Shown: piece by piece, positions 3,424 to 11,947 of the stretch | How positions within the stretch are numbered: position 1 is the first letter of the stretch | Layout: each line of letters opens with the position of its first letter | Source: Thermoleophilum album | GTDB taxonomy: Bacteria; Actinomycetota; Thermoleophilia; Solirubrobacterales; Thermoleophilaceae | DNA length: 64,000 bases | Assembly: GCF_028867705.1 (NCBI RefSeq) | Contig: NZ_CP066171.1 | Location: forward strand, 1,116,001 to 1,180,000 | Direction of reading: 5' to 3' | The notes under the pieces: generated by a model | Database searches by the model: none | The model's input: only the letters and a program-made list of their open reading frames with translations | Told to the model about the DNA's origin: nothing | Program-made: the position numbers and the translations under genes

Positions 3424-5823
3424 TCAGGTGAGCTTCTTTTCGACTTCCCGCACCTCGTACGCCTCGACGACGTCGCCCTCTTTCACGTCCTGGTAGTTCT
3501 CGAGCGTGAGACCGCACTCGAGCCCCGCCTGGACCTCGCGCACGTCGTCCTTGAAGCGCCGGAGGCTGGCGATACGTCCGTCGTAGACCACGGTGCCGTC
3601 GCGCACGAGGCGTGCCTTCGCGCCCCGCCGGATCGTGCCCTCGCGCACGTAGCAGCCGGCGATCGTGCCGACGCGGGAGGCGCGGAAGATGGCACGCACC
3701 TCGGCGACGCCCACCACTTCCTCGACGTGCTCGGGCTCGAGCAAGCCCTCCATCGCCGCCTTGAGCTCCTCGGCCACCTGGTAGATGACCGAGTAGGTGC
3801 GGACCTCGACCCCCTCGCGCTGCGCCGTGGCAGCGGCGCCACCGACCGGGCGCACGTTGAAGCCGATCACGACCGCATCGGAGGCAGCGGCGAGCATCAC
3901 ATCCGATTCGGTGATGCCGCCAACCCCCTCGCGGATGACGTTGACGGTGACCTCGCTCTGCGGCAGCTTGGCGATCTCGTCGAGGATCGCTTCCAGCGAG
4001 CCCGTCACGTCGGCCTTGACGACCAGGTTGAGCTGCCGCTCGCCGCGCTCCGCGCGGGCGAGCACGTCCTCGAGCGAGACACGACGGCGCATCTGACGGG
4101 CCAGCGCTTCCTGCTTCAAGCGCTGGGCGCGCTCCTGGGCTAGACGGCGCGCCTCGCGCTCGTTCTCGACGACGCGGAAGCGATCGCCCGCCTCGGGCAC
4201 CCCGTCGAAGCCGAGCACCTCGACTGGCGTGCCCGGTCCGGCCTCGCGCAAGCGCTGGCCGCGGTAGTCAGTCATCGCCCGCACGCGCCCCGACTGCGTC
4301 CCAGCGAACAGAGCGTCGCCGACGCGCAGCGTGCCGCGCTGCACGAGCAGCGTCGCCACGGGACCACGCCCGGCGTCGAGCCGCGACTCGATGACGGTTC
4401 CCGAGGCCGGCGCCTTGGGGTTGGCGCGCAGCTCGGCGATCTCGGCAAGCGTGACGATCGTGTCGAGCAGCTCGCCGAGACCCTGGCCAGTCTTGGCCGA
4501 CACGTCGACGAACTCGGTGTCACCGCCCCACTCGGCCGGTGTCAGGCCTTTTGCGGCGAGCTCGCCGCGCACGCGCTGGGGATCGGCGTTCTCGAGATCG
4601 ATCTTGTTGACCGCGATGACGATCGGCACGTTCGCGGCGCGCGCGTGATCGATCGCCTCGAGGGTCTGCGGCATCACGCCGTCGTCGGCGGCAACAACGA
4701 TCACGGCAATGTCGGTGACCTGGGCGCCGCGCGCCCGCAGCGCGGTGAACGCCTCGTGGCCCGGGGTGTCGATGAAGGTGATGTTGTGGCCGTTAGTCGA
4801 AACCTGGTAGGCGCCGATGTGCTGCGTGATGCCGCCCGCCTCGCGGGCCGCGACGTCGGTCTGGCGGATGGCGTCGAGCAACGACGTCTTGCCGTGGTCG
4901 ACGTGCCCCATCACCGTCACAACAGGCGGTCGCGGCTCGAGGTCCTCTTCCCGGTCTTCTTCGTCCGCGTCCTGCTCGCCCTCATCGGCGGCGCTGGTGA
5001 TGGTGACCGTCTTGCCGAGGGCGTCGGCGAGCAGCTCGATCGCTTCGTCCGACAGCGTTTGCGTGAGCGTGGCGAGCTCGCCGAGCTCCATCAGTTTCTT
5101 GATCACCTCGGGCGCGGGTACACCGAGCGCCTCGGCGATCTCCTTGACGGTCGAGCCAGAGCGGATCGGAACCGCCTCTTCGCTCGGCGCCTCGGCCTCG
5201 GCTACAGCGGTCGCCGTCTCTACCGGCGCTGGTGGCTCATCGGGGAACGGCTGTCGCCGGCGGCTGCGCCGGCGGGGCCGCTGCCCGGGCGGGGCCGACG
5301 GCCCCGAGGGGCGGTCGGGACGCGACGCCTGGGCGTCGATGACGACGCGCCTTCGCCGCCCTCCCTCGCCAAGCCGTCCGGGGCGCACCGGTCGCGTGCG
5401 GCCGGGACGCTCCCGGCCCGCACCGGCCGTATCGCGCGCGCCGGGCGCCCGTCCCGGGGCGCTGGCGCCACCCCCCCGGGGTGGAGCAGAAGTTTGCCCG
5501 CCGGCGCGACCAGCGGCGGGGCGATCTTCACGGGTAGCGGGGCGGTCGCGAGTCGGTGCGCGCTCCCCCTGACCGGTCGGTCGCGCTCGCGGCGCGCGCG
5601 CTCCCGGCCGGGCCCCGCCGCTCTCGCCGCGCCCGTCCGCTTGAGGACGCTCGGGCTCGGCAGGGGGCGCGTCCGGATCGCCGAAGGCACGCGCGACGGC
5701 AGCCTCGTCGACGCTCGAAGCCGCAGCCTTGACGTCGAGGCCGGCGCGCTGCAGGATCGCGATGACCTCTTTGCTCGGGATCCCGCGCTCTTTGGCTATT
5801 TGATGGACGCGCTTCTTTGCCAC
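3424..5823 (-). CDS. infB: Translation initiation factor IF-2
   Basis: A 799-residue GTPase that places initiator tRNA on the 30S subunit and promotes subunit joining. Two IF2_N helical modules are visible (residues 1-45, and again just before the G domain, starting [15 protein letters not shown]). They are separated by a long Arg/Pro/Gly/Ala-rich linker. The G domain carries [16 protein letters not shown] and NKID, followed by domains II-IV ([13 protein letters not shown]). The gene overlaps the end of ylxR by 28 bp. Confidence 0.98.
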
Positions 5824-6053
5824 TCGTGAACGAAGTCTATGGTCTCTTGTGGAAGCTCAACCGCTGCCCGGAAAGCGCGTGCCAGTGCACGCTGGGCCTT
5901 CGCGAGGGCGGCGCCGCACTGCGGCGAGCCGCAGACGTAGGCACCACGACCGGCGTGGCGCCGCTCAGGGTCGGCGACGACGCGCCGACCGTCCGCCAAG
6001 GCGAGCCGTAGCAGCTCGTCCTGGTAAGCGCGCCGCCGACAGACGACGCACAT
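5796..6053 (-). CDS. ylxR: YlxR (DUF448) RNA-binding protein
   Basis: A small 85-residue YlxR/DUF448 protein encoded between nusA and infB, as in most Gram-positives. It begins at the only canonical in-frame start after the nusA stop, ATG 6053, immediately before the conserved CVVCRRR motif. GRGAYVC with CGSPQC supplies the rest of the family signature. Family members are described as RNA-binding proteins or transcriptional modulators. The start leaves almost no residues before the first cysteine, which is short for the family. Confidence 0.9.
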   Translation of the reverse strand: MCVVCRRRAYQDELLRLALADGRRVVADPERRHAGRGAYVCGSPQCGAALAKAQRALARAFRAAVELPQETIDFVHEWQRSASIK

Positions 6054-6107
6054 CCGAACCGGACGGTGCCGCCGCTCGCCGATCGCTGCCGCCGTCGCCG
6101 GTCGTTT

Positions 6108-7454
6108 TTAACTGTCGCCGCCCTCGTTCGCGACCTGCTCGGCGACACCGGGGGATGCGTCGCCGTCCGACGCCTCCGTGTCGCCCCTCGATCCCTCGGC
6201 CTCGCTGGCCTCGAGCGCTTGGTGGGCCGGCAGCCCGCAATAACGCGAACCCGGCAGCGCCGCGTTCGGGCAGCGACGCCCGTTGGCGAGGATCGCCGCG
6301 CAACGCCCCGAGACCTCCGCCTCCTCTTCCTCGAGGTCGAGCTGGGCCTCTTCCTCGGCGAACTCGCTCTCGGAGCGGATGTCGATGCGCCAGCCGGTGA
6401 GACGTGCCGCGAGCCGCGCGTTGAGACCTTCCTTGCCAATCGCCAACGACAGCTGGTCGTCGGGAACGATCACCGTCGCCTGGCGGGCGTCGTCGTCGAC
6501 CAGCACTTCGCGCACGCGGGCGGGCGACAGCGCCTTGGCGATGTAGCGAGCCGGCTCGTCGTTGTAGGGGATGATGTCGATCTTCTCGCCGCGCAGCTCG
6601 GAGACGACCATGCGGACCCGCGAGCCGCGCGGACCGACGCACGCCCCCACCGGATCGATACCGGTCTGGTGCGAGACGACCGCGATCTTGGAGCGAAAGC
6701 CGGGTTCGCGCGCGACGTTGACGATCTCGACAAGGCCGTCGGCGATCTCGGGGACCTCGAGCTCGAACAGCTTGCGGATCAGCTCGGGCGAGCGCCGCGA
6801 GAGGATGATGCTCGGACCTTTGGCCTGGGCCGATACGTCCGTGATCACCGCCTTGATCCGCTGACCGTGGTCGTAGCGCTCGCCCGGCACCTGCTCGGAG
6901 CGCGGCAGCAGCGCCTCGACACGCTCGCGCAGCTGCACAAGCGTGTAGCGGTTGTCGGACTGCTGCACGATGCCGGTGACGAGCTCGCCGACGCGGTCCT
7001 GGAATTCCTCGTAGGTCATGTCGCGCTCGGCTTCGCGGATCCGCTGGAGGATCACCTGCTTCGCTGTCTGCGCGGCGATGCGGCCGAAATCGCTCGGTGT
7101 GACGTCGCGCTGCTCGATGCGGTCGCCGTGCTCGGCGAGCAACCGCTCGACGTCGATCTCAACCGGTTCGGGCTCGCGCCGCTCGCCGGTCTCGGGATCG
7201 ATGCGCGCACCCTCCTCCTCGGCCTGCTCGGCCTCGGCGATCAGCTGGCGCTCGAGGTCCTCGGGAACGATCAGCTCGAAAACGCGGAATTCGCCCTGCT
7301 CGAGGTCGAACTCGACGCGTGCGTACTTGGCCGCCCCCGGCGTCTTTTTGTAGGCCGACAGCAGCGCATCCTCGATCGCCGCTTTGAGACGGCTCGCGCC
7401 GATGCCCTTCTCTTTAGCTAGCGCCCGTACGGCTTCGGCTATCTCCCTGGACAT
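6108..7454 (-). CDS. nusA: Transcription termination/antitermination factor NusA with Cys/His C-terminal extension
   Basis: Binds RNA polymerase and nascent RNA, influencing pausing, termination and antitermination. The 448 residues contain the N-terminal polymerase-binding domain ([18 protein letters not shown]), S1 ([13 protein letters not shown]) and two KH domains ([16 protein letters not shown], and [16 protein letters not shown]). Instead of acidic repeats, the tail carries Cys385, Cys395, Cys406 and His411 in a knuckle-like pattern, followed by a Glu/Ser/Gly-rich end. It is 3 bp downstream of rimP, a standard pairing. Confidence 0.97.
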
Positions 7455-7457
7455 CCG

Positions 7458-7886
7458 CTACTCCTCCAGCAGGTTGCCGCGGTTGATCTCCGCGTAGGGA
7501 ATCGACACCACCCCGGACTCGGTCGCGACCGTCACCGCGCGATCGTCGGCTCCAACGAGCTCGCCGCTGTAGGTGCGTCGACCGCCGCGCTCGGCGCGCA
7601 GCCGCAAGCGCGCGCGTCGTCCGAGATAGCGACGGAAGTGCGCCGGTTTGGTGAGCGGCCGTCGTGGCCCCGGAGAGGAGACCTCAAGCCCGACCTCGGC
7701 GACGAGATGCCAGAGCTGCCGCGTGACCCGCTCGCAGAGCGCGAGGTCGACACCTTGGGGGTGATCGATCACGAGTCTGATCCGTTCGCGCCCGGCGGGT
7801 TCGCAGGCGAGCAGCTCGACCTCGGGCTCGACCTTCGCGAGCCGTTGCTCGATCTCCGCCCGGAGCTCTTCGATCTTCCGCCGCAC
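7458..7886 (-). CDS. rimP: Ribosome maturation factor RimP
   Basis: A 142-residue 30S assembly factor. Recognisable segments are LVIDHPQGVDLALCERVTRQL, the LEVSSPGPRRPLTKPAHFRRYLG core that is the family's most conserved stretch, and the C-terminal SH3-like domain ending IPYAEINRGNLLEE. It starts at GTG 7886 behind a GGAAG Shine-Dalgarno-like sequence. It is the first gene of the translation operon. A hairpin followed by eight U lies only 27 nt upstream of the start. Confidence 0.94.
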   Translation of the reverse strand: MRRKIEELRAEIEQRLAKVEPEVELLACEPAGRERIRLVIDHPQGVDLALCERVTRQLWHLVAEVGLEVSSPGPRRPLTKPAHFRRYLGRRARLRLRAERGGRRTYSGELVGADDRAVTVATESGVVSIPYAEINRGNLLEE

Positions 7887-7913
7887 TGTCTTCCGAGACG
7901 CCTTCGCTAGTCG

Positions 7914-7941
7914 AAAAAAAAGGGGGGCCGAGGCCCACCCC
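7914..7941 (-). terminator. Rho-independent-type hairpin in the rimP leader (possible attenuator)
   Basis: Read on the minus strand: GGG, one unpaired T, GGGC, tetraloop CTCG, GCCC, CCC and then eight T residues. This is a textbook intrinsic terminator, yet it points into rimP and ends 27 nt before its start codon. A second hairpin (7946-7961, GCGGCC-gtaa-GGCCGC) lies directly before it. Because the upstream gene already has its own strong terminator at 8101-8138, this one may act as a regulated leader terminator. Confidence 0.72.
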
Positions 7942-7945
7942 AGGC

Positions 7946-7961
7946 GCGGCCTTACGGCCGC
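7946..7961 (-). promoter_or_regulatory. Hairpin preceding the rimP leader terminator
   Basis: A perfect 6-bp inverted repeat, GCGGCC with loop GTAA and GGCCGC, sits 4 nt before the terminator-type hairpin. Its GGCC/CGGCC segments could pair alternatively with the terminator arms. That would be an antiterminator arrangement, but this is inference. Confidence 0.4.
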
Positions 7962-8100
7962 AGTCTGAAGCTGTCGCTGCGAGTATAGCCCGCAGCTGTC
8001 TCACGGTCCCGGGTCCCGCGCGCGGGTCGCGCCTCTCCACCTGGCTCCGCCGTCACCCGCAGAAAGTGTCGAAGCGAACCCATGCCCTGCCTTGGACGGG

Positions 8101-8138
8101 AAAAAGGGCGGGCCGCCGCGTTACGCGGCGGCCCGCCC
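8101..8138 (-). terminator. Strong intrinsic terminator of the secreted-protein gene
   Basis: A perfect 15-bp stem (GGGCGGGCCGCCGCG and its complement) with a 3-nt loop, followed on the minus strand by five T residues. It lies 53 bp after the stop codon of the gene at 8191-8814 and separates that gene from the rimP operon. Confidence 0.88.
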
Positions 8139-8190
8139 GAGGACCGCTCTCTGGTGGGTCGGCGCTAGCACCGACCCGCTGGAGGCGTTC

Positions 8191-8814
8191 TCAGCTCGCG
8201 TTCGTCGGTGGCGCCAGCTGGATCTGGAACGGGTTACCCGGCCCCGACATCAACAGATTGAGGAGCGGGGTCGTCAACCCGCAGCCGGTCAGCGATGGCA
8301 GCGTCGTCGTTCCGGAGAACGAGATGCCCTGGCCGAGCTGGGCGAAGGGCACCGTCGCCGAGAGCGGCAACTCGACCGGCTGGGAGGTGCGGCACGTACG
8401 GCTGCTCACCAGGTTGAGCGGGAGGTACGGCGACGAGAGACGCCGGATGTAGATCGTCGACGCGGAGGTGGCCTTCACCGTGACGTTGCCATCCGTCCCG
8501 ATCGCGATCGAGCCCGACACCGGCCGCGCCTCGACCAGCTCGAGCGTCGCGTCGACCGGCAAGCCGAGAACCTTGAGGCGCGCCTTGATCGTGGGGATCG
8601 AAACGCTGCCCGAGAGAGCTCCGGTCGACACGTTCCAGCTGCCGTTGAACGTCGCGCCGCTCGGGATCGTGACGCTCTGATTGAGCTTCTTGATGCCGAG
8701 CGTGCCCGACACCTTCCAGTTAGTGAACGGGACTTCCTGCGCGGAAGCGGCAGGGGCTGCTACCGCGAACGCACCGACGACGGCAAGAGCCGCAGCCTTG
8801 CGGCGAAGTGCCAT
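8191..8814 (-). CDS. Secreted protein of unknown function
   Basis: A 207-residue protein that I do not recognise. Residues 1-26 form a Sec signal peptide (Arg/Lys-rich start, Ala/Val core, predicted cleavage after ASA before QEV). The mature part is rich in Ser, Thr, Val, Leu and Gly with alternating strands, suggesting a beta-rich extracellular domain. Two cysteines in the second half could form a disulfide. A GGAGG Shine-Dalgarno lies 7 nt before ATG 8814. It is monocistronic, with a strong terminator behind it. Confidence 0.8.
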   Translation of the reverse strand: MALRRKAAALAVVGAFAVAAPAASAQEVPFTNWKVSGTLGIKKLNQSVTIPSGATFNGSWNVSTGALSGSVSIPTIKARLKVLGLPVDATLELVEARPVSGSIAIGTDGNVTVKATSASTIYIRRLSSPYLPLNLVSSRTCRTSQPVELPLSATVPFAQLGQGISFSGTTTLPSLTGCGLTTPLLNLLMSGPGNPFQIQLAPPTNAS

Positions 8815-8868
8815 GCGAACGACCTCCCTCCAGGGAACGTTGGGTTTTCGGGATGTGGGGGACTTTGC

Positions 8869-8917
8869 GGCCTAGCGGACGCCTCCGGTGTCCGCTCCCG
8901 ACCTCGGGCGCTAGGCC
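8869..8917. repeat. Nested inverted repeat upstream of the secreted-protein gene
   Basis: An outer pair GGCCTAGCG / CGCTAGGCC (8869-8877, 8909-8917) encloses an overlapping inner pair GCGGAC / GTCCGC and a short CCCGA-CC-TCGGG element. It lies between dtd and the secreted-protein gene. It could be the dtd terminator or a structured leader; no T-run follows on either strand. Confidence 0.5.
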
Positions 8918-8935
8918 TTCGGCCGGTGGTCCGCC

Positions 8936-8953
8936 TGACCGTCCGATCGGTCA
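8936..8953. promoter_or_regulatory. 18-bp palindrome TGACCG-N6-CGGTCA, possible repressor operator
   Basis: A perfect inverted repeat with 6-bp arms and a 6-bp spacer between the dtd stop codon and the secreted-protein gene. The spacing resembles operators of TetR-type dimeric repressors, but no regulator gene is adjacent. It could alternatively be part of a transcript hairpin. Confidence 0.35.
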
Positions 8954-8967
8954 GCTGCGCTTCGATC

Positions 8968-9435
8968 CTACGACGGTTCGTCGCGGCGCGCAAGCAGCTG
9001 CGTGTCGAGCACGATCGTCACCGGCCCGTCGTTGACCAGCTCGACGCGCATGTGCGCACCGAAGCACCCGCGCTTGGCGCCCAACAATTCGCACAGGCGC
9101 TCGTAAAGCACCTCGGCGCGTTCCGGCGGCGCCGCCTCTTCGAAACTCGGGCGCCGGCCGCGACGCGCGTCGGCGAGCAGCGTGAACTGGCTGACGCAGA
9201 GGATCTCGCCGCCCACGTCCACGAGCGAGCGATCGAGCGGCCGGCGATCGCTCGGGAAGATGCGCAGGGCGCGGATCTTGCGTGCAAGCAGCTGACAGTC
9301 GCTCTCGGTGTCGTCGCGCGCGACGCCGGCCAGCACGAGCAGCCCGCGGCCGATTGCAGCCACGGCCCTCTCTCCCCCGTCCGGATCGACCACGCTCACG
9401 CGGGCGCGAGCCACCCTCTGCACCACCGCTTTCAT
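8968..9435 (-). CDS. dtd: D-aminoacyl-tRNA deacylase
   Basis: Hydrolyses D-amino acids (and glycine mischarged on tRNA-Ala) from tRNA. The 155-residue protein begins at ATG 9435 (MKAVVQRV), the conserved N-terminus of the family; the frame stays open upstream but is not conserved. Diagnostic motifs are ILCVSQFTLLAD (SQxT, the specificity motif) and NDGPVT (the NxGPxT/GP cis-proline motif). A TTATAG hexamer 11 nt before the ATG suggests a leaderless or nearly leaderless transcript. Confidence 0.95.
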   Translation of the reverse strand: MKAVVQRVARARVSVVDPDGGERAVAAIGRGLLVLAGVARDDTESDCQLLARKIRALRIFPSDRRPLDRSLVDVGGEILCVSQFTLLADARRGRRPSFEEAAPPERAEVLYERLCELLGAKRGCFGAHMRVELVNDGPVTIVLDTQLLARRDEPS

Positions 9436-9566
9436 GGCGCGCGAGGCTATAAGTCGGGCACCAGGTCGGGCACGGCACGACGCCGGCAGGCGGTCAGGGC
9501 ATAGCCGAGGCCGCCGCGAGCGCCGACTCGCTCGGGCGGCATCGTGCTCTGTTCGGAAGTCGGACG

Positions 9567-10037
9567 ATGAGCGAGCAACGACAAGCAAGTGGCGACCTCC
9601 GCTCCCTGGTCGGCGGCTACCTCGCCGGGCTCGGGGTACCGGTGCGGTCCTTGGCTGAAGGCGAGTGGGGCGTCACCCTGCCCGCTGGTGTGTGCGGCGA
9701 GCGAGCGCTCGACATAGGCCTGCGCGTCAGCGACGGGCTGCTGGCAGCGCGCGCCTTCGTGGCTGACGCAAGCCACGGCCTCGACCCGTTCGCGCTGCTC
9801 CACCTGAACCGCCACCTCACCCTGGTGCGCGTAGGGGCGTCACGCAGCGGCGAGTTGTGGATTCACGGGGAACTGCCTGTCGACCAGGTGTCCGTGTCGG
9901 CGCTCGACCGTCTTTTGGGTCACCTTGTCGAGACAGCGGCGCTCGTGCGCGAGGCGGCATGGCCGAGCGGCGCCGCCCGCTCGTGGGACTCGCCCTGGAC
10001 GCGCTTAGCCGAGCGCGGTGCGAGTCACGGGTTTTGA
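9567..10037 (+). CDS. YbjN-like conserved hypothetical protein
   Basis: A 156-residue protein starting at ATG 9567, 11 nt after GGAAG. The body has a compact alpha/beta pattern (GEWGVTLP, ALDIGLRVSDGLLAARAFV, LLHLNRHLTLVRVG, GELWIHGELPVDQVS, then a helix). This resembles YbjN / type III secretion chaperone-like proteins of actinobacteria. No catalytic motif is visible. It is divergent from dtd and convergent with the TPR gene. The family assignment is tentative and the biological role unknown. Confidence 0.65.
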   Translation: MSEQRQASGDLRSLVGGYLAGLGVPVRSLAEGEWGVTLPAGVCGERALDIGLRVSDGLLAARAFVADASHGLDPFALLHLNRHLTLVRVGASRSGELWIHGELPVDQVSVSALDRLLGHLVETAALVREAAWPSGAARSWDSPWTRLAERGASHGF

Positions 10038-10054
10038 AGAGACCCGCAGCGCCC

Positions 10055-10447
10055 TTAGCTCGCGCGCAAACGCTCGAGGAAAGCGCGGTAGTCGGCGCGG
10101 TCGGGCCGCATGCAAGCGGCTAACGCAGCGTGTCGGCGCGCTTCCAGGTGACGCCCGGTCTTCTCGGCCGCCCGCCCGAGGCAGTAGTGAGCGTAGTCGT
10201 CGACGGGATAGCGCTCGACCACCGCTGCGAACTCCTCGCGCGCCTCCTCGAAACGGCCGGAGCGGAAGTAAGCGCGCCCGAGAGCTTCCCGGATCGAGCT
10301 TTTGTCAGGCTCGAGCCGCCGTGCGCGCTCGAGCGGCACCTGGGCGGCCATGAAGTCGCCGGCAGCCAGCAGCGCACGCCCGCGCTCGAGCAGCTCGTAG
10401 ACGTGCTCGCCGCGTTCCTCGGGTGTGCGGAACTCGTCGCCGCTCAC
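10055..10447 (-). CDS. Tetratricopeptide repeat protein
   Basis: A 130-residue protein made almost entirely of about three TPR helix pairs: ERGRALLAAGDFMAAQVPLERA, then LGRAYFRSGRFEEAREEFAAV, then CLGRAAEKTGRHLEARRHAALA. TPRs mediate protein-protein contacts; the partner is unknown. It lies 204 bp downstream of coaBC on the same strand, so it may be read from the same transcript or from its own promoter. Confidence 0.82.
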   Translation of the reverse strand: MSGDEFRTPEERGEHVYELLERGRALLAAGDFMAAQVPLERARRLEPDKSSIREALGRAYFRSGRFEEAREEFAAVVERYPVDDYAHYCLGRAAEKTGRHLEARRHAALAACMRPDRADYRAFLERLRAS

Positions 10448-10539
10448 GCCATCCCGAGGTTAGAGAGCTCCCGCATCAAGCCGACACCGTCCGTTCGCGG
10501 ACGCCGGCCGATCGCGGCCGTCCGGCCCCTGCCCTCGCT

Positions 10540-10641
10540 CCGCCTGTGTACTCACGACCTCTCCGCGCGTGCGCGCGCGGCACGGCCATCCGCTGGCGCG
10601 TAGTACTTGCGCCGCCTGTGGACCCGCGACCTCTCCGCGCG
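10540..10641. repeat. Imperfect 30-bp direct repeat, two copies 72 bp apart
   Basis: Copies at 10540-10569 and 10612-10641 match at 27 of 30 positions, both ending GACCTCTCCGCGCG. They occupy the intergenic region between coaBC and the TPR gene. I see no coding frame, terminator or known family signature. Confidence 0.6.
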
Positions 10642-10651
10642 CGCGGCGCGA

Positions 10652-11947
10652 CTAGCGCGCTGCTCGGGTTACGAGCAGCCGCTCGACCTCGTCGAGAACG
10701 GCCTCGGCGACGGCACTTTTGGCTTGTCGCTCGACCCGCCGTTCGACGCCGTCGGCGGTGACGATCACGACAGCGTTTTCAGTGCTGTCGAAGCCGATCC
10801 CCGGCACGGAGACGTCGTTGGCGACGATCGCGTCCAACCCCTTGCGCGCGAGTTTGGTGCGGGCGCGAGCCACGAAGTCGCCGCCGTGCTCGGCAGCGAA
10901 GCCGACGACGAGCTGCTCGGCGCGCCGCTGCGATGCGAGCCCGGCGACGATGTCTTCGGTAGGTTCGAGTTCGATCGCCAGCCGCTCGCCGCGCTCGAGC
11001 TTCACGCGAGCGGCATCGGCAGGACGAAAGTCTGACACCGCCGCCGCCATCAGCAGCACGTCACAGCTCGGGAACCGCTCGTCGAGCGCGGCCGACAGCT
11101 CGGCGACGGTTTCGACAGCGACGTGCTCGACACCTACGGGGGGCGGCACGGCGAGGTTGGCGCCGACGAGAGTGACGCGCGCACCGCGCTTGTTGGCGGC
11201 GGCAGCAAGCGCCACTCCCATCCGCCCCGACGAGCGATTGCCGATGAAACGCACCGCGTCTAGCGGTTCGCGCGTACCGCCGGCCGTCACGAGCACGCGC
11301 TTGCCGGCGAGAGCGTTCGGTTGGGCCTCGCCGCTAGCGGGTAGCGCCGCCGGCTCGGGGGAACGCCCCTGCCCGCCGGCGAGCGTGCTCTCGAGCACGG
11401 CGAGGATGCGCTCGGGATCGGCGAGGCGCCCGGCCCCCCACTCGCCGAGCGAGGCCAAACGTCCTGTCTCGGGCTCGACGACCACGATTCCGGCCGCCCG
11501 CAACCGCTCGACGTTGGCGGACGTAAAGACGTTGCGCCACATCGCGTCGTTCATCGCTGGCGCGACCACGACAGGTGCGCGGCAAGCGAGCGCGGCGGTC
11601 GTCACGAGGCTGTCGGCCTGGCCGGCGACGAGCTTCGCGATCGTGTTGGCGGTCGCCGGCGCGATGCAGTAGACGTCGCAGCGTTCGACGAGCGCGAGGT
11701 GCGAGATCGGCTGGTGGCGCGGCATCTCCTCGCCCGGGTAGGCGCCACGGAGTGGGTCGGGCTCGAACTCGTCGACAAGCACCGGCGCGCCGGTGATCGC
11801 CTCGAACGTCGCCCGCCCGACGAAGCGCACGCTGGTGGGCGTCTGGACGACGCGCACTGCGTGCCCGCGCTCGGTTGCAAGCCGCACGAGCTCGGCGGCC
11901 TTGTAGGCGGCGATGCCGCCGCAGACGCCGAGAAGGATGCGCGCCAT
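10652..11947 (-). CDS. coaBC: Bifunctional phosphopantothenoylcysteine decarboxylase / phosphopantothenate-cysteine ligase
   Basis: Performs two consecutive coenzyme A steps: ligation of cysteine to 4'-phosphopantothenate, then FMN-dependent decarboxylation. Of 431 residues, the N-terminal CoaC flavoprotein domain shows GVCGGIAAYKAAELVR, the APATANTIAKL histidine/asparagine region and PAMNDAMW. The C-terminal CoaB domain shows VTAGGTREPLDAVRFIGNRSSG, AAAVSDFRP and the KLERG lysine. It follows rpoZ by 8 bp. Confidence 0.97.
   Translation of the reverse strand: MARILLGVCGGIAAYKAAELVRLATERGHAVRVVQTPTSVRFVGRATFEAITGAPVLVDEFEPDPLRGAYPGEEMPRHQPISHLALVERCDVYCIAPATANTIAKLVAGQADSLVTTAALACRAPVVVAPAMNDAMWRNVFTSANVERLRAAGIVVVEPETGRLASLGEWGAGRLADPERILAVLESTLAGGQGRSPEPAALPASGEAQPNALAGKRVLVTAGGTREPLDAVRFIGNRSSGRMGVALAAAANKRGARVTLVGANLAVPPPVGVEHVAVETVAELSAALDERFPSCDVLLMAAAVSDFRPADAARVKLERGERLAIELEPTEDIVAGLASQRRAEQLVVGFAAEHGGDFVARARTKLARKGLDAIVANDVSVPGIGFDSTENAVVIVTADGVERRVERQAKSAVAEAVLDEVERLLVTRAAR

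Follow-up and report, generated by a model that had tools for sequence, protein, structure and literature searches.

The rimP-nusA-ylxR-infB operon on the minus strand of the window (the whole 64,000-nucleotide stretch of Thermoleophilum album DNA analysed here) is preceded by a conserved attenuator of the known rimP-leader type, an element that is genuine and for the most part unremarkable. Sequence comparison gives good support for attenuation of the rimP-nusA operon: it revealed a promoter-proximal conserved terminator, covariation in the stem, and one strong covariance model match per genome. In our full reading, to which we assign a rough probability of 0.78, a long form of an upstream hairpin (long P1) would compete with the terminator and so set transcription into the operon, NusA favouring termination. 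The new detail is that, in folding calculations for the window's family, a strand at the 5′ end of the leader can pair with the base of the terminator 5′ arm, the two states being of near-equal energy. The rimP-leader is widespread and has seldom been tested; these observations extend this attenuator to a deep branch of the Actinomycetota, and they define P1, the 5′ strand, and the terminator base as elements that are open to mutation. The antiterminator, if true, would also explain how a promoter-adjacent terminator is passed in an essential operon, and how NusA could tune this passage.

Table 1. Features of the rimP leader, the operon, and the upstream region (window positions).
Feature	Position	Strand	Description
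Upstream gene	8814-8191	minus	207 aa, probable secreted protein without convincing family
Upstream-gene terminator	8138-8101	minus	stem 8138-8106 of 15-16 bp, then T5
Weak -35, GGGACC	8010-8005	minus	by inspection
-10 element, TATACT	7987-7982	minus	inferred rimP promoter; similar spacing to the terminator in aligned relatives
Putative antiterminator 5′ strand, GCUUCAG	7971-7965	minus	pairs with CUGGGGU, 7943-7937
Upstream hairpin P1	7962-7945	minus	UGCGGCC 7962-7956 / GGCCGCG 7951-7945, loop GUAA; by folding
Terminator stem-loop, GGGUGGGC CUCG GCCCCCC	7940-7922	minus	contains the GGGc(...)gCCC motif
U8 tract of terminator	7921-7914	minus	U tracts in most relatives too
rimP	7886-7458	minus	first operon gene, GTG start at 7886; Pfam RimP C-terminal SH3 (2.7e-11), RimP_N (6.9e-5)
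nusA	7454-6108	minus	second operon gene; Pfam NusA_N (2.1e-24), KH_5 (7.8e-27), S1
ylxR	6053-5796	minus	downstream operon gene; Pfam YlxR (1.3e-17)
infB	5823-3424	minus	downstream operon gene; Pfam IF-2 (9.7e-38)

The operon was identified by Pfam matches to RimP, NusA, YlxR, and IF-2, which occur in this order in a genome of 2.11 Mb assembled as a single contig; by kinship, the window was assigned to family f1. As shown in Table 1, direct reading of the sequence placed the elements of the leader, 5′ to 3′ on the minus strand, in the order -10 element, 5′ strand, P1, terminator, 27 nt, and rimP GTG codon. The terminator that the first-pass annotation had located 27 nt before rimP was thus confirmed, by reading and by folding, at 7940-7914, and the second hairpin that had been described just before it was found as P1. 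In the terminator, GGG (7940-7938) pairs with CCC (7924-7922) and GGGC (7936-7933) with GCCC (7928-7925), with U7937 bulged and a CUCG loop at 7932-7929. Folded alone, it reached -14.8 kcal/mol (z -2.34; 5 of 200 shuffles were as good).

Farther upstream, the 207-aa gene is flanked by dtd (9588-8968) on one side and by the rimP leader on the other, and it seems also to be carried by L002, which belongs to the same genus as the window; in several other relatives, a dtd-like sequence lies directly 5′ of the rimP leader. An imperfect inverted repeat (GGGTCGGCGCT / AGCACCGACCC, 91%) lacking a T run was also noted at 8156-8177, between the stop codon and the terminator of the upstream gene.

Transcription of rimP probably starts at about 7975-7974, as judged from the position of the -10 element. 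Because both the terminator and P1 lie downstream of this conserved element, both would fall within the rimP mRNA. A start between 7914 and 7886, which would place the hairpin outside that mRNA, found no support; the conserved -10 element is 5′ of both hairpins, and inspection of the sequence revealed no TANNNT-type element placed to start transcription in that interval. The same evidence bears on whether the hairpin might be a mere transcription terminator of the upstream gene with no role in control. Inspection of several relatives showed a dtd-like coding sequence close to the leader with no other obvious terminator, as such a function would have it; however, the upstream gene in the window possesses a stronger terminator of its own (8138-8106 plus T5), just as the first-pass annotation had stated, a conserved -10 element intervenes between that terminator and the rimP-leader hairpin, and the terminator stays at rimP in families with differing upstream sequence. 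Given the separate terminator and the intervening -10 element, this explanation was rejected as highly improbable.

When positions 7000-9500 were scanned for a terminator pattern, two terminator-like sites were obtained, namely the rimP-leader terminator and the upstream-gene terminator, compared with 1.3 expected (sd 1.1) from shuffled sequences, and the pattern scan by itself is therefore no proof; chance sites of this kind are common in this GC-rich region. The interval from 700 to 400 nt 5′ of nusA was then considered in 126 loci of the class (15 from f1, 6 from f2, 14 from f3, 16 from f4, 14 from f5, 20 from f6, 17 from f7, 19 from f8, 1 from f9, and 4 from f10), two of which had too short an interval. 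A nusA match was present in 113 class genomes; G033, G049, G083, and G105 were omitted (their nusA start being absent or close to the end of a contig), as were L027, the second fragment of the L024 locus, and L020, which is without rimP. A sense-strand terminator preceded rimP-nusA in 121 of the 124 testable loci, and the GGG..CCC stem was found on the sense strand in 110/124, compared with 1/124 when these intervals were read on the reverse strand. Terminator stems varied among families and yet still paired (AGUGGGC, AAAUGGGCGC, and AGUCGGUG). The order of elements was the same in the leaders of the window and of 24 relatives, apart from L020, and in all 15 f1 leaders the terminator and a -10-like element occurred in the same order before rimP. 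A chance hairpin was thus rejected on class-wide conservation, whereas the pattern scan alone would still allow one.

Outside the class, one genome per family was sampled from the phylum (37 families, from 146 genomes with a match; five further families were omitted with the match at a contig edge or not among the matches listed), and the interval was too short in one locus. The remaining 36 loci yielded a terminator in 28 and the GGG..CCC stem in 25, versus 2 on the reverse strand. Named loci from many phyla were also scanned over a 400-nt interval (77 of 80 were covered, three having too little upstream sequence); 70 had a terminator and 61 the motif, with 12 showing the motif on the reverse strand. 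Conservation, proposed earlier as a check on both hairpins, held for the terminator in the class as a whole and in a large part of the phylum; P1 was conserved within the family and was not seen as such in every family of the class. As to individual lineages, the GGG..CCC terminator was absent from 11 of the 36 testable loci of other families (L146, L150, L154, and others), 8 of which had no terminator whatever in the interval; the rimP-leader element seems to be lost or different in some lineages of the phylum. In family f10 (L017:3265-3376 and L019:3307-3419), a further hairpin (CGGCGA..UCGCCG) with a run of six U after it was seen just 5′ of the rimP-leader terminator, an arrangement that looks like the tandem terminator reported for some Gammaproteobacteria.

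Structural conservation was assessed with a covariance model, R1, for which 12 f1 leaders of 12 other genomes were used; the window and its genus were excluded. R1 matched the window leader at 7977-7915 (E 1.9e-9), at rimP, and nowhere else in the genome. Among 21 relatives, 12 had a match at E 0.1 or better; strong matches occurred once per genome, at leaders already read, and partial matches were a second one in G129 (E 0.006) and one in G011 (E 0.042). The four f1 genomes that gave no R1 match also gave no nusA match, which fits assembly gaps. In the model-based alignment (31 distinct rows, including reverse readings of some palindromic terminators), 93.6% of the cells of the terminator and upper P1 were paired, and two-sided changes numbered 41 cells compared with 14.7 in shuffles (0 of 500 shuffles were as high); this result leans toward structure, because the alignment was fitted to that structure. 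The class-wide terminator, the covariation of its stem, and the single model match at rimP give good support to the attenuation of the nusA operon that had been hypothesized from the window alone.

The rimP-leader was the most widespread attenuator found by Naville & Gautheret 2010 (PMC2965389). In that work, its general form consists of a conserved GGGc(...)gCCC terminator stem with a U stretch, located 4-130 nt from the gene start, with no larger element and no visible antiterminator; more complex forms are described in Gammaproteobacteria, and NusA is named as the best candidate regulator. Measured against this description, the window element likewise precedes rimP as the first gene of a rimP-nusA-infB operon, likewise has GGGC CUCG GCCC followed by CCC and U8, and lies 27 nt from the gene start, inside the 4-130 nt range. 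Unlike the general form so described, it has a conserved P1 and a possible antiterminator strand before the terminator. We take the conserved P1 to mark a variant that keeps its membership, because the paper itself includes the more complex Gammaproteobacteria forms. The Rfam family RF01770 (rimP) shares both gene context and name with the window element, yet its covariance model does not match the window (5000-11000, to E 5) or any of 13 relatives; among 14 control genomes, it matched Escherichia coli only. In our search of literature on Thermoleophilia and attenuation, none of the matches listed concerned the window element.

Precedents for autoregulation come from several other bacteria. 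According to a 2025 review citing Mondal et al. 2016 (PMC12288461), B. subtilis NusA autoregulates by leader termination; the window resembles that nusA operon in having intrinsic termination in the leader, and differs in that NusA dependence, reported for B. subtilis, would here be supposed for a different phylum. For gbs0413-0418 of Streptococcus agalactiae, NusA feedback was proposed from RNA-seq (PMC4448216); as in the window, a short leader RNA and an intrinsic terminator precede the rimP-nusA operon, the leader ending 31 nt after the start there and probably about 62 nt after it here. In E. coli, rimP is preceded by two terminators, and the operon is under the control of its product NusA (PMC6511841). 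By such precedent, NusA would be the regulator here as well.

A mechanism can be proposed on this basis. Transcription would start near 7975, and RNA polymerase would make a leader of about 62 nt ending at the intrinsic terminator; a fraction of polymerases would stop at 7914 while the remainder read into the operon. As long as the terminator lacks its 3′ arm, long P1, whose lower strands are 7971-7965 and 7943-7937, would hold the base of the terminator 5′ arm; synthesis of the missing arm could then let the terminator displace long P1, so that competition between the two would set the stopping fraction. NusA, a product of the operon, may favour pausing and the terminator fold, as reasoned from B. 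subtilis, and we therefore propose that much NusA would give less read-through. Folding is consistent with these steps. For RNA 7975-7933, which ends before the 3′ arm, the best fold, at -22.1 kcal/mol, was long P1 including seven lower pairs, and for the complete leader it was P1 plus terminator (-31.2 kcal/mol); with each state enforced, the window gave -27.9 kcal/mol for the antiterminator versus -29.1 kcal/mol for the terminator. When 24 of the 28 f1 and f3 leaders were scored (four were without a 5-bp helix), the terminator was energetically favoured in all 24, by a mean of 3.3 (range 0.2 to 8.6); read-through therefore needs kinetics or a factor. The shared GGCC pieces noted in the first-pass annotation are unlikely to be the switch; the piece able to compete is GCUUCAG against CUGGGGU, the latter overlapping the terminator 5′ arm.

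Whether the 5′ strand acts as an antiterminator has to be weighed against a leader in which the terminator is the only working part, with RNA polymerase or the terminator as the direct target of NusA and no antiterminator formed by P1 and the 5′ strand. This alternative, which we hold at a little short of even odds, accords with the general rimP-leader, in which Naville & Gautheret (PMC2965389) saw no antiterminator, and with families f5 and f7, which show none. It also accords with the test against dinucleotide shuffles of the upstream part: pairing was not in excess in f1 (mean z -0.12; 0 of 15 leaders at p<=0.05), nor in f3, f7, and the rest of the phylum (mean z -0.3, 0.03, and -0.09, respectively). 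Against it, all 15 f1 leaders show pairing between the 5′ strand and the terminator arm (5-8 bp; 7 or more in 13), and when parts of the window leader were swapped, a foreign arm did as well in 0 of 60 cases and a foreign upstream part in 1 of 60. Over all f1 trials, an equally good score was reached in 11% when the arm was replaced by those of other families and in 17% when the upstream part was replaced by foreign ones. Covariation in the lower helix was modest (92.0% paired versus 90.4% in shuffles, of which 39 of 500 were as high; in alignment A5 alone, 83 of 500 were as high). By inspection, the window (L001), L002, and L004 have one base fewer in both strands of the lower helix, as the loss of a pair would give, while in L024 that base is missing from one strand only; because L001 and L002 share one genus, the paired losses amount to about two events. 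Taken together, these data make it plausible that the lower P1 helix serves as an antiterminator in the window's family.

Another possibility is that a ligand other than NusA reads the leader, such as RimP or a P1-binding ribosomal protein. In its favour, P1 is conserved, its pairs showing two-sided changes in the model-based alignment, and RimP feedback is named as possible by Naville & Gautheret (PMC2965389). Nevertheless, no Rfam family matched window positions 5000-11000 at E up to 5, and P1 as such was not seen in every family of the class whereas the terminator is nearly universal; we consider this explanation unlikely. A known riboswitch or ribosomal-protein leader was likewise rejected on the Rfam search, including the RF01770 result in the relatives.

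Returning to the competition of long P1 with the terminator, we asked how far it might apply beyond the family. That the rimP-leader in the class is a true two-state switch, in which the 5′ strand changes in step with the base of the terminator 5′ arm, is a tentative suggestion that we lean somewhat against. Tracking pairs were seen in f1 and f3 (ACUUUCR versus YGRAGGU/YGAAAGU), in f6 (AUUUC versus GAAAU), and in f8 (ACUGCGA versus UCGGAGU). In the shuffle test, some excess of pairing was found in f4 (mean z -1.41, 9 of 15 at p<=0.05) and f6 (mean z -1.32, 4 of 17); with very short leaders such as those of f6, a further shuffle-based helix search gave no information, and it missed the f8 helix, which contains a G.G mismatch. 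Six Bacillus-type leaders have (A/G)CUCU versus AGAGU, the Bacillus-type group as a whole being not significant, and these pairs hint that an antiterminator strand may perhaps be wider than the class.

Two further arrangements were observed in individual families. In f4 leaders (for example L044:727-782 and L063:941-995), pairing among the segments CCGGG, ACCCGG, AGCGGGUC, and GACCCGCU could give 1:2, 2:3, and 3:4 hairpins as alternatives, an arrangement that resembles a classical attenuator; f4 was also the family that performed best in the shuffle test. In f8 leaders (for example L083, L093, L110, and L112), ACUGCGAR is also able to pair with YUUGCAGU just 3′ of the terminator, near the rimP start, and one 5′ strand may thus have two partners.
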